Origin: Bacillota bacterium
GTDB lineage: Bacteria > Bacillota > Clostridia > SK-Y3
Length of the DNA stretch: 34,034 nt
Assembly (NCBI GenBank): GCA_022360955.1
Contig: JAKSBV010000254.1
Span: 1-34,034 of the forward strand
Direction: 5' to 3'
The position numbers were made by a program, and so were the translations under genes. The notes beneath the pieces were generated by a model that was not told where the DNA came from, searched no databases, and saw only the letters and a program-made list of their open reading frames with translations. Positions 4,995 to 34,034 of this stretch are shown here, one piece after another (within the stretch, counting starts at the first letter, position 1; the number at the start of each line of letters is the position of its first letter).

Positions 4995-5022
4995 TTGACA
5001 TATAATATATATCTGTTATACT
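4995..5022 (+). promoter_or_regulatory. Promoter of the GntR/DUF1648 operon
   Basis: TTGACA (4995-5000), a 16-nt spacer and TATACT (5017-5022). The -10 element lies inside the left arm of a perfect inverted repeat, a layout that suits autorepression. Confidence 0.7.
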
Positions 5023-5041
5023 ATAACTATAACAGATATAT
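5007..5041. promoter_or_regulatory. GntR/YtrA-type operator: perfect 14-bp inverted repeat
   Basis: ATATATCTGTTATA (5007-5020) and its exact reverse complement TATAACAGATATAT (5028-5041) are separated by 7 bp. The left arm covers the -10 box and the right arm the likely transcription start, so binding of the GntR protein encoded just downstream would block initiation. Confidence 0.7.
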
Positions 5042-5066
5042 ATTATATGTGGAGGAGGCGAAAAAG

Positions 5067-5465
5067 GTGTTGATAGGATTGGACTTTCAATCTGACATCC
5101 CCATATACCTGCAATTAAAGACACAAATCATCGAAGGCATTGCAACCGGCAGACTCAAACCCGGTGACTCCCTGCCTTCGGTAAGGCAATTTGCGGAAGA
5201 CCTAGGCATCAACATGCACACGGTCAATAAGACATACAATCTGCTCAAACAGGACGGCTTTATCCTGGTACACCGGCAAAAAGGGGTGGTGGTAAATCCT
5301 AACGGCAGTCCTGCTGTTACCGACGACTATCTCTCACATCTGGATGACGGTTTAAGGCCTATGATCATAGAAGCCTTTTGCAGAGGCATAAAAGAAGAAG
5401 CATTTAACAAACTATGTAGTGAAATATTTTTAACATTAAAAAATGCTGGAGGCGATGAATCATGA
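5067..5465 (+). CDS. GntR family transcriptional regulator, YtrA subfamily
   Basis: A 132-residue protein. FQSDIPIYLQLKTQIIEGIATGRLKPGDSLPSVRQFAEDLGINMHTVNKTYNLL is the full winged helix of YtrA-type GntR regulators; the short C-terminal part (about 60 residues) is the size expected for that subfamily, which lacks a large effector domain. The open frame reaches back to 4995, but that stretch is the promoter. The GTG at 5067 has GGAGGAGG 8 nt upstream and gives a normal N-terminus. Its last codons overlap the next gene (ATGA), so the two are translationally coupled. YtrA regulators usually control a membrane protein or ABC exporter in their own operon. Confidence 0.92.
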   Translation: MLIGLDFQSDIPIYLQLKTQIIEGIATGRLKPGDSLPSVRQFAEDLGINMHTVNKTYNLLKQDGFILVHRQKGVVVNPNGSPAVTDDYLSHLDDGLRPMIIEAFCRGIKEEAFNKLCSEIFLTLKNAGGDES

Positions 5466-19823: not shown

Positions 19824-22118
19824 CTATGTATATCTTTCAATATTTAAATTTTTGCGATAGTACCCGGGTGTAACACCCTTTATCTTTTTATATTGCTTAA
19901 TAAAATAACCTGCATCTTTAAATCCGACTTTACCGGAAATTTGTTCAACCGTCAGATTAGTTTCTTTCAAAAGCTTATTGGCATGATGAATGCGTTTAAT
20001 AACAAGCAGCTGAGAATATGTTTTCCCCGTTTCTTCTTTAATAATCTTGCTTAAATAAGAATAACTCACATGGAAGCAATCAGCCAAATCTCTAAGACAT
20101 ATCTCTTTATCAATATGCTTCTCAATATAAGTGAGGATGGATTCTACCAATTCAGATTTTGAGGTTTCTTTTCGCGTTTCAACTACCAACAATACATCTT
20201 TGATCAGTTGACTATATATTTTATTAAACTCGTCAAGATGTACCATCTTTTTATAGTCGGCCACAAAAGTATCCACAATATCTGACGGTAATCTTAGGCT
20301 GTTTTCTTGCAGAAATTGTTTGGTCTTTGACACTAATTCACTTAATAATAATTGTACGGTCTCATAGGAAGCCTTTCGGACTTTCATTTGATAAACGGTG
20401 TCTTGTATATAGCTCTCCAGTTGGTTCCGATTCATGGTGTTAATCAGGCCTTTTAATTGATAAGGATCAAAAATTTCTTCTGCCTTAATATCTGCAAACG
20501 GCCCGTCTTTGTCATAATCCATCATATTATCGTATATGAACGTATATTTATTCATTTCTTTCGCTTCTGCATAAGATTTATAAACATTTTCAATATCACT
20601 ATAACTCTTGCCGCTGCAAAGCTTGCATTTGTACTTGTTTGAGCCCAGGCCCAAATTTTTAGTAATATACACGTATAACTGGGAAACCATTTGATCATAG
20701 ATTAAGCAATCTTTGTAATTGCAAATCATAACGATTTCATGCTTTCCACGAATTAAATTATAGATATTCAGGCCTTTATAATTTAAGTGATCCGTATACT
20801 CCATGATACCTAAACAAAGTAATTCTATTTCCGATATACTCATTAATTTACTAAAAAAAACAATCAAGACCTTATAATAGGGACCAACAAAACGTATATC
20901 AAGAAATTTTTGTTTATTCTTAATATCATTTATACTAATGGTATTCTGGATTAAGTCTGTATAAAAGTTATTTTTAATGTTCGGTATATATGTATCTAAA
21001 GTCCTATTTAATCCGTTTATTTTCTTGGTTAGCGTTTGTATTGTGACATCAATCGCTTGATAATCATCAACATCTCTATCTTTTTTGAGATCTATAGAAT
21101 TTTTGGCCTGCTTCACAAGCTCGCTAATCGGACGATATATTTTCTTTGATTTTATATACACCAGTATACTGCTGATGACCAACATGGCAATACCCATAAA
21201 AACGATCTGCTTTTTTAAGATGGATGATTTTTCAAAATAATTGCTTTTAGGCGTTGTAAACGTATATACAAAATCATTATCGTCAGATAGAACAAAGGAA
21301 TGAATCAAATCGTTCACTTTAACCTGAGATACTTTATGACTTGATAACCGCTTAGCACTTAATAATTCCTTAACAACGGCATTGTCTTTTTCCCAGTCCT
21401 TTTTTGTACTGTATATGCTATTGCCATTTTTATGGTATATATTAAACTGATAAATATCCTGTACGATATTTTGATTCAATATATCATCAATATACGATTT
21501 GTATATGTTAATAGCAACGATGGCTTTTTTATCACTTGCAGCATCACCTGTTAGCAACGTTCTTAAAATAGTGATTACCTCATCTTTTTCATTGTTATAA
21601 AATAGCCTTGGTTCATGAGATGCGAAAGAAGTGGTAGTGCCGATAAAATCAATATGCTTGAGCCATTCAAACTCTACATAACTAGAGGTGTGCTGATCAA
21701 CATATTTAAAACTACTGCTGGAATTAACGAATTTACTATCGGAATAATAAATATTGATGGAATGGAATAAGGATACATTTTTTTTCTTTAACGCTAACAG
21801 ATCCTGATGCACCTTATATATAGCCCACATTTCGTACACTTTATCCTGTTCATAGATCGGATCAAAGTATCCCACGTTTTTTGTATCAAAAGCAATGTGT
21901 GAAAAAACCTCAAAGATCGGTACGGTTACCATATTATCAACGACCATTTTCATTTGCAATAAAGATTTTTTATTCACATTACTAAGCTCTTCTTCATAAT
22001 TAGCTACGAATATCATATAGTATATGATAGCATTCACTATGATTAAGGGAATAATAATCAATAAATAGGATACCACGATTTGAAATAAATTAGACCGCTT
22101 TTTATATCTGGCAAGCAT
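19824..22118 (-). CDS. Membrane-bound AraC family sensor-regulator
   Basis: A 764-residue protein. A first membrane span lies at about residues 10-35 (LFQIVVSYLLIIIPLIIVNAIIYYMIF), then an extracellular sensor of about 270 residues, then a second span at about 315-335 (IVFMGIAMLVISSILVYI), a HAMP-like/coiled linker (YRPISELVKQAKN), a cytoplasmic middle region and a C-terminal AraC double helix-turn-helix (about 665-760: ICLRDLADCFHVSYSYLSKIIKEETGKTYSQ and LTVEQISGKVGFKDAGYFIKQYKKIKGVTPGYYR). Such proteins sense an outside sugar or binding protein and control a nearby importer. GGGAGGGTG precedes the ATG at 22116-22118. It directly precedes the LplB/LplC/lipoprotein genes, which it probably regulates. 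Confidence 0.92.
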   Translation of the reverse strand: MLARYKKRSNLFQIVVSYLLIIIPLIIVNAIIYYMIFVANYEEELSNVNKKSLLQMKMVVDNMVTVPIFEVFSHIAFDTKNVGYFDPIYEQDKVYEMWAIYKVHQDLLALKKKNVSLFHSINIYYSDSKFVNSSSSFKYVDQHTSSYVEFEWLKHIDFIGTTTSFASHEPRLFYNNEKDEVITILRTLLTGDAASDKKAIVAINIYKSYIDDILNQNIVQDIYQFNIYHKNGNSIYSTKKDWEKDNAVVKELLSAKRLSSHKVSQVKVNDLIHSFVLSDDNDFVYTFTTPKSNYFEKSSILKKQIVFMGIAMLVISSILVYIKSKKIYRPISELVKQAKNSIDLKKDRDVDDYQAIDVTIQTLTKKINGLNRTLDTYIPNIKNNFYTDLIQNTISINDIKNKQKFLDIRFVGPYYKVLIVFFSKLMSISEIELLCLGIMEYTDHLNYKGLNIYNLIRGKHEIVMICNYKDCLIYDQMVSQLYVYITKNLGLGSNKYKCKLCSGKSYSDIENVYKSYAEAKEMNKYTFIYDNMMDYDKDGPFADIKAEEIFDPYQLKGLINTMNRNQLESYIQDTVYQMKVRKASYETVQLLLSELVSKTKQFLQENSLRLPSDIVDTFVADYKKMVHLDEFNKIYSQLIKDVLLVVETRKETSKSELVESILTYIEKHIDKEICLRDLADCFHVSYSYLSKIIKEETGKTYSQLLVIKRIHHANKLLKETNLTVEQISGKVGFKDAGYFIKQYKKIKGVTPGYYRKNLNIERYT

Positions 22119-22179
22119 TTTCACCCTCCCATAAATATCCAATAACCATAAAACGATTATAGAAAGCATCTATAGTTAT

Positions 22180-22209: not shown

Positions 22210-22386
22210 GAGCAGTATTGGATGTGGGAGTATCCATAACGCTAACAGGCCCTAAACCTTTCTACAATGTTCTTCCCATATCCTTTAACTAGCACAACAG
22301 GTTAACTTTATAATTCTCTATCACCACACCTTATGTTAATGAATACAATATATAAAGTGGATTTTTTCTAAAAGGAGGAAATTGCG

Positions 22387-22833
22387 TTGAAAAGGCTGAA
22401 TCCTAAAAAATTGTTTGTACAATACCGCCCCGGTGTAACGCCGACCCACCCCATCATCTCCAGGCGTTATACGTTGACCCATTCCGATGTTACCGGCGAA
22501 CTGTTCCTCATGATAGGATTACAATATGCGTATGACAAAATTAATCCGATGAGAGATGAAGTGCTGACCGAATGGTGCCGCGTTGACAATAAATATGTAT
22601 TCTGTGCTTATGCTTATGTGGGAGGACCCTTTAGCAGGGAAGAGGCGAAGGTGCGTTACGGTTTTTTCAAAAAGGAAATGCCGCTGGCCCTTGAAGCCAT
22701 GCGCTACGGAGACAGGTCCTTCTTTAAGGCCCATCCGGAATTGGATAACGTACCTATTTGGATCTACTTCGATTCTGTTTATCCTTACTTTAACCGTTTA
22801 GAATACTGGGGAACTTTTTCGGATTACAAATAA
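22387..22833 (+). CDS. Staygreen (SGR) family protein, bacterial
   Basis: A 148-residue protein that I recognise as a bacterial member of the Staygreen family. RRYTLTHSDVTGELFLMIG, MRDEVLTEW, YCAYAYVGG-like middle, VRYGFFKKEMPLALEAMRYGDRSFFKAHPELDNVPIWIYFDSVYPYFNRLEYWG follow the plant SGR domain almost end to end. Plant SGR removes Mg from chlorophyll a; some bacterial homologues have Mg-dechelating activity in vitro. The His and Asp in LTHSD fall at residues 32 and 34, positions I recall as catalytic in bacterial SGR. The start is a TTG with GGAGG 8 nt upstream. It stands alone on the plus strand, convergent with the GH3 gene. The natural substrate in a non-photosynthetic Firmicute is unknown. 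Confidence 0.9.
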   Translation: MKRLNPKKLFVQYRPGVTPTHPIISRRYTLTHSDVTGELFLMIGLQYAYDKINPMRDEVLTEWCRVDNKYVFCAYAYVGGPFSREEAKVRYGFFKKEMPLALEAMRYGDRSFFKAHPELDNVPIWIYFDSVYPYFNRLEYWGTFSDYK

Positions 22834-22892
22834 AAAACAGGCCAGACCTTGCATTCTTCACGCATTATAATGGGCGAATGATGCAGGGCCTG
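22832..22892 (-). terminator. Terminator between the Staygreen and GH3 genes
   Basis: CAGGCC (22838-22843) and GGCCTG (22887-22892) close a long imperfect hairpin (inner CTTGCATTC/GAATGATGCAG). On the minus strand it is followed by TTTTTTATTT, so it mainly serves the GH3 gene. Confidence 0.7.
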
Positions 22893-22905
22893 ACCCTCTC
22901 CTGAC

Positions 22906-25065
22906 TTACTTGACTATAAAATCTGCCGAAAGCACTTTTTGGCCTGTTAATGCCTCGCTTCTTGCATCGGGCTGACTGCCTCCTGCAAATACACGAAAGG
23001 CGCCCGGCTCCAGCATTTGTTTTCCGTTATCATCAAAAATACTCATTTTCTCCGCCGTCATTGCAAAGGATACCCGCTTCTTTTCACCCGGCTGCAAATG
23101 AACAGGCTTGATACCTTTTAACTGCCAATGGGGCACAACCACGGAAGCCTCCAAATCTTTCAGGTATACCTGTACTATTTCCTCTCCGGCCCGGTTACCG
23201 ATATTTGCAACCTCTACCTCAACATTAACGGCTTCTCCGGCTGCAACTTCTTTTTGGTCCAACGTTAAACGGCCGTATGCAAACCGGGTATAGCTTAACC
23301 CATAGCCGAAAGGATACAGCGCTTCTTGCTCCATATACCTGTAAGTCCGGTTTTTCATATTATAATCTTCAAAGGGAGGTAAATCCTCCATAGAACGCAC
23401 AAAGGTCACCGGTAATCGTCCGGCAGGATTATGGCTGCCAAAAAGTACGTCGGCAATCGCAGTACCGCCTTCTGCACCGGGATACCAGGCTTGAAGTATG
23501 GCAGGAATATGCCGGTCCGCCCAGTTCAAAGCCAAGGCGCTTCCGCTTAACAAGACGAGAATAACCGGCTTGCCGGTGGCGTGGATTCTTTCCAAGAGCT
23601 CTTGCTGCAATCCCGGCAGATCAAGATTTACTTTATCGCCTGCCGCCTCCGCATTGGGCGATTCTCCTTCTTCCCCCTCCAAACAAGCGTTTAACCCTAA
23701 ACACATAATTACGGCATCCGCTTTTTCAGCCGCACTCACGGCCTCGGCAAAGCCGTCTCTCGTTTCCTGTACTTCACCCCGTGAACGCTCTCCTGTCATC
23801 TCGCACCCCTTGGCATAATACACTCTGGTATCGGGATTGACTGCGTTACGAATGGCTTCTAACGGTGTCACATATTTGGAGGGAGTGCCTGCATAGTTGC
23901 CAAGCAGCACCTCTCTGTCATCTGCATTAGGTCCGATAACGGCAATGGTTTGAATCTTATCCCGCTCAAAGGGCAGCACATTATTTTCATTTTTCAGCAA
24001 CACTATACTCTTTCTGGCAACCTCTACCGCAAACTTATGATGTGCCTCGCAATCATTTACTTCATAAGGCGTACTTGCATAGGACACCATGTGCGCCGGC
24101 TCAAACATGCCCAGTTTGAATCGTGTTACAAACAGTCTTTTGACAGCAGTTGTAATTGCTTCTTCGGTAATAAGTCCCTGCTGGTGTGCAGCCAGCAAAC
24201 TTGGGAATGTATTCCCGCAGTTTAAATCGCTTCCGTTTTTCACAGCCAACGCGGCAGATTCTGCCGGGGTTTCCGTTATTTTATGGTGCATATGGAAATC
24301 ACAAATCGCCCAGCAATCCGATACTACGTGCCCTTCAAATCCCCATTGGTCTCGCAAAATATCCTGAAGCAGGGTCTTGCTGCCACAGCAAGGTTCCCCG
24401 TTGGTACGGTTATAGGCACCCATGACCGCTTCTACTTTGCCCTCCTGCACACACGCTTTGAAAGCAGGCAAATAGGTTTCATGCAGGTCTTTTGGTGTAA
24501 CCATCGCATCAAATTCATGGCGTTTACCTTCCGGGCCGCTATGCGCCGCAAGATGCTTGGCACATGCAGCTGCCTTCATATATTTTGCATCACTGCCTTG
24601 AAGGCCCTTAATGAAGCCAACCCCTAATCTGGATGTGAGATACGGGTCTTCTCCATAGGTTTCATGACCGCGTCCCCAGCGGGGATCACGAAAGATATTG
24701 ACATTCGGCGACCAAAAAGTCAGCCCTTTATAAATACCATGATCCCCTTTACGCTGGAATTCATGATACTTGGCTCTGGCTTCGTCCGATGTGACCTTGG
24801 CAACCTCATACAATAAATCTTCATCAAAGGTCGCTGCCATCCCGATAGCCTGCGGAAAAACGGTTGCCGTACCCGCCCGTGCAACCCCGTGCAGGCATTC
24901 ATTCCACCAGTTATAGGCAGGAATGCCCAAGCGTTCAATGGCAGGTGAATAATGCAGCATTTGAGATACTTTTTCTTCCAAGGTCAGCTGAGAAACCAAA
25001 TCATTGACCCGCTCGTCAATGGATAAAGACGGGTCCTGAAAAGCAAATTTATAGTTTGCAGTCAT
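22906..25065 (-). CDS. Glycoside hydrolase family 3 (beta-xylosidase/beta-glucosidase)
   Basis: A 719-residue GH3 enzyme. The N-terminal barrel has LGIPAYNWWNECLHGVARAGTATVFPQAIGMAATFD, a motif characteristic of the xylosidase/arabinofuranosidase branch; NIFRDPRWGRGHETYGEDP; AKHLAAHSGPE; and VVSDCWAICDFH, whose Asp250 is the expected nucleophile. The second domain carries CLGLNACLEGEEGESPN (463-469 EGEEGES), where the acid/base Glu is expected. A fibronectin III-like domain ends the protein (about 640-719). There is no signal peptide, so it acts in the cytoplasm on imported oligosaccharides. The ATG at 25063-25065 has GAGGAGGA upstream; the open frame begins 17 codons earlier without one. A divergent AraC regulator lies next door. 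Confidence 0.94.
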   Translation of the reverse strand: MTANYKFAFQDPSLSIDERVNDLVSQLTLEEKVSQMLHYSPAIERLGIPAYNWWNECLHGVARAGTATVFPQAIGMAATFDEDLLYEVAKVTSDEARAKYHEFQRKGDHGIYKGLTFWSPNVNIFRDPRWGRGHETYGEDPYLTSRLGVGFIKGLQGSDAKYMKAAACAKHLAAHSGPEGKRHEFDAMVTPKDLHETYLPAFKACVQEGKVEAVMGAYNRTNGEPCCGSKTLLQDILRDQWGFEGHVVSDCWAICDFHMHHKITETPAESAALAVKNGSDLNCGNTFPSLLAAHQQGLITEEAITTAVKRLFVTRFKLGMFEPAHMVSYASTPYEVNDCEAHHKFAVEVARKSIVLLKNENNVLPFERDKIQTIAVIGPNADDREVLLGNYAGTPSKYVTPLEAIRNAVNPDTRVYYAKGCEMTGERSRGEVQETRDGFAEAVSAAEKADAVIMCLGLNACLEGEEGESPNAEAAGDKVNLDLPGLQQELLERIHATGKPVILVLLSGSALALNWADRHIPAILQAWYPGAEGGTAIADVLFGSHNPAGRLPVTFVRSMEDLPPFEDYNMKNRTYRYMEQEALYPFGYGLSYTRFAYGRLTLDQKEVAAGEAVNVEVEVANIGNRAGEEIVQVYLKDLEASVVVPHWQLKGIKPVHLQPGEKKRVSFAMTAEKMSIFDDNGKQMLEPGAFRVFAGGSQPDARSEALTGQKVLSADFIVK

Positions 25066-25121
25066 CTTACAATCCTCCTCTAATATAAAAATCTTAATAA
25101 TTACATGATTATTCAACTATG

Positions 25122-33244: not shown

Positions 33245-34034
33245 TCAATTATTCACTTTTATCGTTACTTTGCCTGCGCCTTTACTTTTTTGTCCTCCCA
33301 GCCACTGAATACTTTCTAAAGCCGGCTTTAAAATATCTTCTATCAGTATAGTATTTACATCGTCTTCAGCCTTACAATTTTCTAACCACTTGTCAAGCGT
33401 ACAAGTTCCGATTTTTCTTGGATGTCCGAAATGAAAATCCTGCACCGGAAAATCAAGGATTTCAATCATACCGAAAAACTTCGTTCCGGGCTTTACTTGT
33501 TCCCCGTCAACTTTTGCCTTGTTGGCCGCTGTCCACATTTTCCTATCAAGCCTAATATTGGTCTGCTCAATGATATTCCCCTCCTGTTGAGGTAAAAAAT
33601 TTGAAATTCTTAAAAATCCCATAATTCCTGCAGCACCCATAAAGTAACAAACGGGACAAAGCCCTGAGTTACCTACTATTTTAGTATCATTTGCCTTTAT
33701 TTCACAATATCCGTCATATTTTTTATCTTTTATGTGACCGCGATAGCTCTTCGATGAAATCAGTGATTGTTCTGCCCTCGTGGGAGAAGATGAGGGAATA
33801 CAAGGCTTTAATATATCTATATTTACATTAAAGGTTTCTTTCCATTTCTCGGCTTCATTAATGAATTTTTGTTCTAATTGATACCTTAAAGCACCTTTAA
33901 AACTGCTTGCAGGTATGACAGGTTTCCCTTCAATTTTGAATATAGTTCCTTTCTTTTCTGTCAGAGGTGATGCTGCTCCCCCAATATGTAAAAAACTATC
34001 TACGGCAATTTCCACTTCCACCTCAATATTTTTA
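33245..34034 (-). CDS. Type III CRISPR RAMP (Cas7-like, Csm3-related) protein, 5' end beyond the window
   Basis: At least 258 residues. VEIAVDSFLHIGGAASPLTEKKG and PVIPASSFKGALRYQLEQKF are the RAMP start and the S-x-K-G-x-L-R motif of Csm3/Cmr4-like backbone subunits; CPVCYFMGAAGIMGFLRISNF contains a CxxC zinc-binding pair; the glycine-rich end LGGQKSKGAGKVTIKV is the RAMP G-loop. It would bind the crRNA and cut target RNA as part of a Csm/Cmr-type complex. A GTG at 34019-34021 could be a start, but it has no well-placed ribosome binding site and the frame stays open to the edge (KNIEVEVE), so the true start is probably outside. The exact subtype cannot be set. Confidence 0.88.
   Translation of the reverse strand, partial: KNIEVEVEIAVDSFLHIGGAASPLTEKKGTIFKIEGKPVIPASSFKGALRYQLEQKFINEAEKWKETFNVNIDILKPCIPSSSPTRAEQSLISSKSYRGHIKDKKYDGYCEIKANDTKIVGNSGLCPVCYFMGAAGIMGFLRISNFLPQQEGNIIEQTNIRLDRKMWTAANKAKVDGEQVKPGTKFFGMIEILDFPVQDFHFGHPRKIGTCTLDKWLENCKAEDDVNTILIEDILKPALESIQWLGGQKSKGAGKVTIKVNN

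Follow-up and report, generated by a model that had tools for sequence, protein, structure and literature searches.

Gene and surroundings

The window, by which the whole analysed stretch of 34,034 nucleotides is meant, carries a single gene for a Staygreen-family (SGR) protein; the gene and the features around it are listed in Table 1. The reading frame is open throughout and its borders are exactly those given in an earlier note on this DNA. The gene is solitary, lying between a divergent gene for an AraC-type regulator and a convergent gene for a GH3 glycosidase. The hairpin in the convergent gap is the probable transcription end shared by the SGR and GH3 genes; a terminator scan of it found no fitting T run. 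Besides the GH3 glycosidase and the sugar-type ABC transporter, an alpha-amylase is encoded in the window. At the contig end lies a gene for a RAMP-superfamily protein (33245-34021, minus strand; PF03787, 3.2e-17), where a type III CRISPR-Cas locus probably begins or ends.

Table 1 Features at the Staygreen locus, in positions of the window
Feature	Position	Strand	Remarks
Staygreen-family (SGR) protein gene	22387..22833	+	148 amino acids; TTG start, TAA stop; catalytic-site residues H32, D34, D57
Ribosome-binding site AAAGGAGG	22372..22379	+	Just 5' of the SGR TTG start; read from the sequence, position accurate to one or two bases
Promoter-like match TTAACT-18-TATAAT (10/12)	22285..22314	+	5' of the SGR gene; based on the consensus alone
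Strong hairpin (z -4.15)	22840..22895		Intergenic, where the SGR and GH3 genes converge
Large AraC-type regulator gene	19824..22169	-	Divergent neighbour; adjoins the sugar-type ABC transporter; outside the SGR system; not common to other SGR loci
GH3 glycosidase gene	22906..25116	-	Convergent neighbour; outside the SGR system; clusters with a single other SGR locus

For 52 of 89 SGR copies a same-strand neighbour within 100 bases is absent, and comparison of 87 loci revealed no recurrent partner at a fixed place beyond one synteny block. Within that block a secreted FG-GAP-like protein of about 253 amino acids, below the Pfam cut-off, is encoded directly 5' of Staygreen and 3' of parE-parC (17 loci of 10 Bacillales-like groups; e.g., L057:5172-5939). 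It was considered as a functional partner and dropped, the association sitting within the parE-parC synteny block. At one locus (genome G004, L010:10068-12397) inspection by eye placed Staygreen directly 3', on the same strand, of genes resembling those for the large and small subunits of [NiFe] hydrogenase; such genes do not recur beside SGR at other loci. Neither a tetrapyrrole gene nor an obvious importer of metal complexes adjoins the SGR gene, which counts against explaining the protein as a metal dechelatase.

Family, fold, and active site

The Staygreen profile of Pfam (PF12638) matches the 148-residue protein with an E value of 8.5e-57 and 191.6 bits, over profile positions 2-147 of 147. 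As the cut-off is 27 bits and the whole domain is covered, a chance match is excluded, and membership of the Staygreen family is virtually certain. The earlier note, made from the letters alone, had named the protein a Staygreen homologue and proposed this profile search; the end-to-end match bears it out, and the two motifs that it cited, LTHSD with His32 and Asp34 and the block ALEAMRYGDRSFFKAHPELD, are both found in the protein. An NCBIfam search with the window protein returned no match.

Among solved structures, phmmer retrieved a single entry, 7Y5Y (E 1.8e-30), the bacterial SGR AbSGR-h. An AlphaFold2 model of the window protein, built from three sequences, reached middling confidence (pLDDT 63.8); in a Foldseek comparison with the PDB its sole significant match was again this structure (7y5y_A; E 1.3e-11, probability 1.00, TM about 0.66, 44% identity over the alignment). 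Gelsolin-like and nuclease-like folds also appeared and were set aside as weak (E above 0.001). The superposition on a bacterial SGR that the note had suggested thus gives the expected fold, and the placement of His32 and Asp34 agrees.

Up to residue 53 the window protein and AbSGR-h share one numbering, and R26, Y28, T29, T31, H32, D34, and T36 are common to both. Beyond a five-residue deletion, R61, D62, and E63 of AbSGR-h correspond to R56, D57, and E58 in the MRDE motif of the window protein, and R95 and D114 to R90 and D109; all structural residues (R26, Y28, T29, and D109, the last being D114 in AbSGR-h) are therefore present. So is the second essential aspartate (D62 in AbSGR-h, here D57), which the note had passed over. 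In AbSGR-h, the D34N and D62N variants are inactive yet soluble and H32A has weakened activity (PMC8531759); from the crystal structure a mechanism was proposed in which D34 acts on the metal beside an H32-D62 pair (PMC11006732).

The three catalytic residues are well conserved among 89 homologues (H32 in 88, D34 in 84, D57 in 84). The exceptions include three copies of family f214 with E34 and N57 (loci L132, L122, and L119) and a divergent plasmid copy of Priestia megaterium with P32, Q34, and N57 (locus L058); judging from these replacements, activity may have been lost or changed in all four. Some f214 genomes hold two to four matches to the Staygreen family each.

Loop before the MRDE motif

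Directly before the MRDE motif the two proteins differ: AbSGR-h reads SGWYTRFMRDE and the window protein NPMRDE, its loop being five residues shorter. The missing residues fall within G54-F59 of AbSGR-h and include W55, R58, and F59, which form part of the predicted substrate cavity (PMC8531759), a feature of AbSGR-h and not a known defining trait of SGR-type Mg-dechelatases. The spacing from Y28 to RDE, 33 residues in AbSGR-h, amounts to 28 or 29 in each of the 87 scorable homologues (the window, same-phylum genomes, and Bacillota plasmids), and the pocket loop with W55, R58, and F59 occurs in no Bacillota homologue examined. The short loop may lower the activity of the window protein on chlorophyll.

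Distribution and spread

A sample of 398 genomes from the host's phylum held 7 with the Staygreen family; in the sample of the host's class two genomes only have it, the host itself and G004 of the same family. One Bacillales-like order is rich in carriers (163 of 397 genomes), and three other orders yielded 3 of 74, 6 of 13, and 4 of 9, where the first two counts each include a short fragment. The label Bacillales-like, and that of Bacillota for the host's phylum, derive from the named Bacillaceae and Fictibacillaceae copies that stand among these sequences in the tree. Plasmids of Peribacillus, Cytobacillus, and Priestia carry copies as well, recorded as 'staygreen family protein'.

A further copy lies on a viral contig of 45.6 kb in IMG/VR (IMGVR_UViG_3300033406_000373; Staygreen gene at 5001-5453, locus L134), on the opposite strand between the genes for a terminase small subunit and a ParB-DNA methyltransferase; it is 49% identical to the window protein. 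The phage record collection gave no match. A scan of genome contigs with the window protein, with Chloroflexi and archaeal genomes outside its range, gave one locus.

In a tree of Bacillota-side homologues and one Chloroflexi sequence, the window gene stands nearer to the copies of a few Bacillales-like families and to those of G082 and G004. Its closest homologue is that of G082 (68% identity), and the tree places the window copy no further than this nearest row. AU tests with the window copy joined to G004 or to G082 as a clade were run, and the quick free trees scored worse than the constrained ones. The G004 copy nests, with support of 99/84 and 100/80, among copies of f211 and f189, two Bacillales-like families, to which it is 76-80% identical as against only 59% to the window copy; placement and identities together suggest horizontal transfer. 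The patchy distribution, the plasmid copies, and the copy on a phage contig likewise indicate horizontal spread.

Tetrapyrrole synthesis in the host

HemB (PF00490) and HemC (PF01379) were not found in the host assembly, nor in G082, whose homologue is the closest; by this absence both organisms are apparently incapable of tetrapyrrole synthesis. The CobN/BchH family (PF02514), looked for in the host alone, is missing from its whole assembly. The remark that no chlorophyll genes lie nearby is correct for the window. At 97% completeness and in 522 contigs, the host assembly might conceal a clustered hem operon in a single gap, which counts against a tetrapyrrole-free reading; G082 (98% complete, about 40 contigs) is for this reason an important second case. 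If both absences are right, the substrate in these two organisms is not a tetrapyrrole of their own making. Most of the other SGR carriers checked have HemB, which is present in 23 of 27 genomes in all.

Statements on host biosynthesis would not apply to the SGR gene if the window contig were an assembly contaminant, a reading that might draw on the 522 contigs, on the 4.4% contamination of the assembly, on the presence of SGR in only one other genome of the host's family, and on a second PanB, 43% identical, on another contig. The PanB of the window contig is itself 73% identical to that of a same-family genome and 61-63% identical to those of two others, values above nearly all other class members. 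This closest match supports the contig as the host's own, and contamination is very improbable.

Discussion

The gene is truly related to the plant enzyme for Mg removal from chlorophyll, yet as a bacterial relative it is ordinary. A single-gene, horizontally mobile Staygreen-family metal dechelatase is, by analogy with AbSGR-h, the best explanation of it, and one to which we give an even chance. That the protein would remove a metal from some complex is, on the same analogy, quite probable; that the complex is an imported tetrapyrrole falls slightly short of an even chance. As in AbSGR-h, D34, held deprotonated by the H32-D57 pair, would coordinate the chelated metal, and protons would take the place of the metal. 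As tetrapyrrole synthesis seems to be lacking altogether in the host, the native substrate would most likely be a metal complex from outside the cell, either a metallotetrapyrrole or another chelate; with the chlorophyll-pocket loop missing, chlorophyll would at best be handled weakly.

Two other readings concern the substrate. An efficient chlorophyll dechelatase, serving a host that degrades plant fibre and meets plant or algal chlorophyll, would accord with the GH3 glycosidase, alpha-amylase, and sugar-type ABC transporter of the window, which fit a saccharolytic life, and with the presence of every residue that AbSGR-h needs for activity; AbSGR-h, with about 44% identity, shows high activity towards chlorophylls in assays (PMC8531759, PMC11006732). 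Yet five residues of the cavity loop are missing and the loop is short in every scorable homologue, no further gene of chlorophyll breakdown lies near the SGR gene, and according to published work activity varies greatly among bacterial homologues; this reading is decidedly unlikely. Somewhat less so, though still rather doubtful, is a role apart from tetrapyrroles, such as taking Mg or another divalent metal off a nucleotide, a siderophore-like compound, or a phosphate chelate, with chlorophyll as a side reaction. With HemB and HemC missing, no endogenous tetrapyrrole is expected in the host and G082, and no gene family recurs beside SGR in the 87 loci apart from the one synteny block; PMC8531759 cites a paper, Obata 2019, whose title describes the bacterial activity as promiscuous. 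Against such a role, no substrate of the kind is positively indicated, and most of the other carriers checked have HemB.

An intact catalytic site in the host and in G082, if both are truly free of tetrapyrroles, would point to the demetallation of an environmental or non-tetrapyrrole complex and not to turnover of the cell's own tetrapyrroles. That Staygreen proteins of this type are in general mobile accessory dechelatases, whose native substrate the host does not make, may be put forward tentatively.

The gene is not new in kind. Staygreen homologues have since 2019 been described as widespread in chlorophyll-free bacteria and, so far as the account of Obata 2019 given in PMC8531759 extends, they occur in chlorophyll-free bacteria and archaea with variable activity, one having passed to photosynthetic eukaryotes (PMC8531759). 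The question that the earlier note raised, what the native substrate is in a host without chlorophyll, is a real one; the facts beneath it had already been published and carriers are common, as the count of 163 in 397 genomes illustrates. The present analysis adds that the host background is apparently free of tetrapyrroles, that copies lie on plasmids and on a phage contig, and that the Bacillota homologues examined have a short loop. Several bacterial homologues were reportedly assayed by Obata in 2019. The plant gene responsible for Mendel's green peas has been proposed to derive from bacterial Staygreen proteins. The host and G082, apparently without tetrapyrroles, are useful test organisms for the original Staygreen role, because a self-made substrate (haem, sirohaem, cobalamin, or chlorophyll) can largely be excluded in them.

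Relation to known systems

With the plant STAY-GREEN Mg-dechelatase (SGR/NYE1) the window protein shares the Pfam domain PF12638 from end to end. The plant protein is a chloroplast enzyme acting on chlorophyll a (PMC8531759); unlike it, the window protein is a stand-alone bacterial protein of a host without chlorophyll and apparently without tetrapyrrole synthesis. AbSGR-h, an active Chloroflexi enzyme from Anaerolineae bacterium SM23_63 (PDB 7Y5Y), is of the same family and fold. The 'staygreen family protein' copies of Bacillaceae, including those on plasmids, belong to the same family at 34-54% identity and, the divergent Priestia copy excepted, share the catalytic residues of the window protein; many Bacillales-like copies form a more remote subgroup, often located 3' of parE-parC and the gene for the secreted FG-GAP-like protein.
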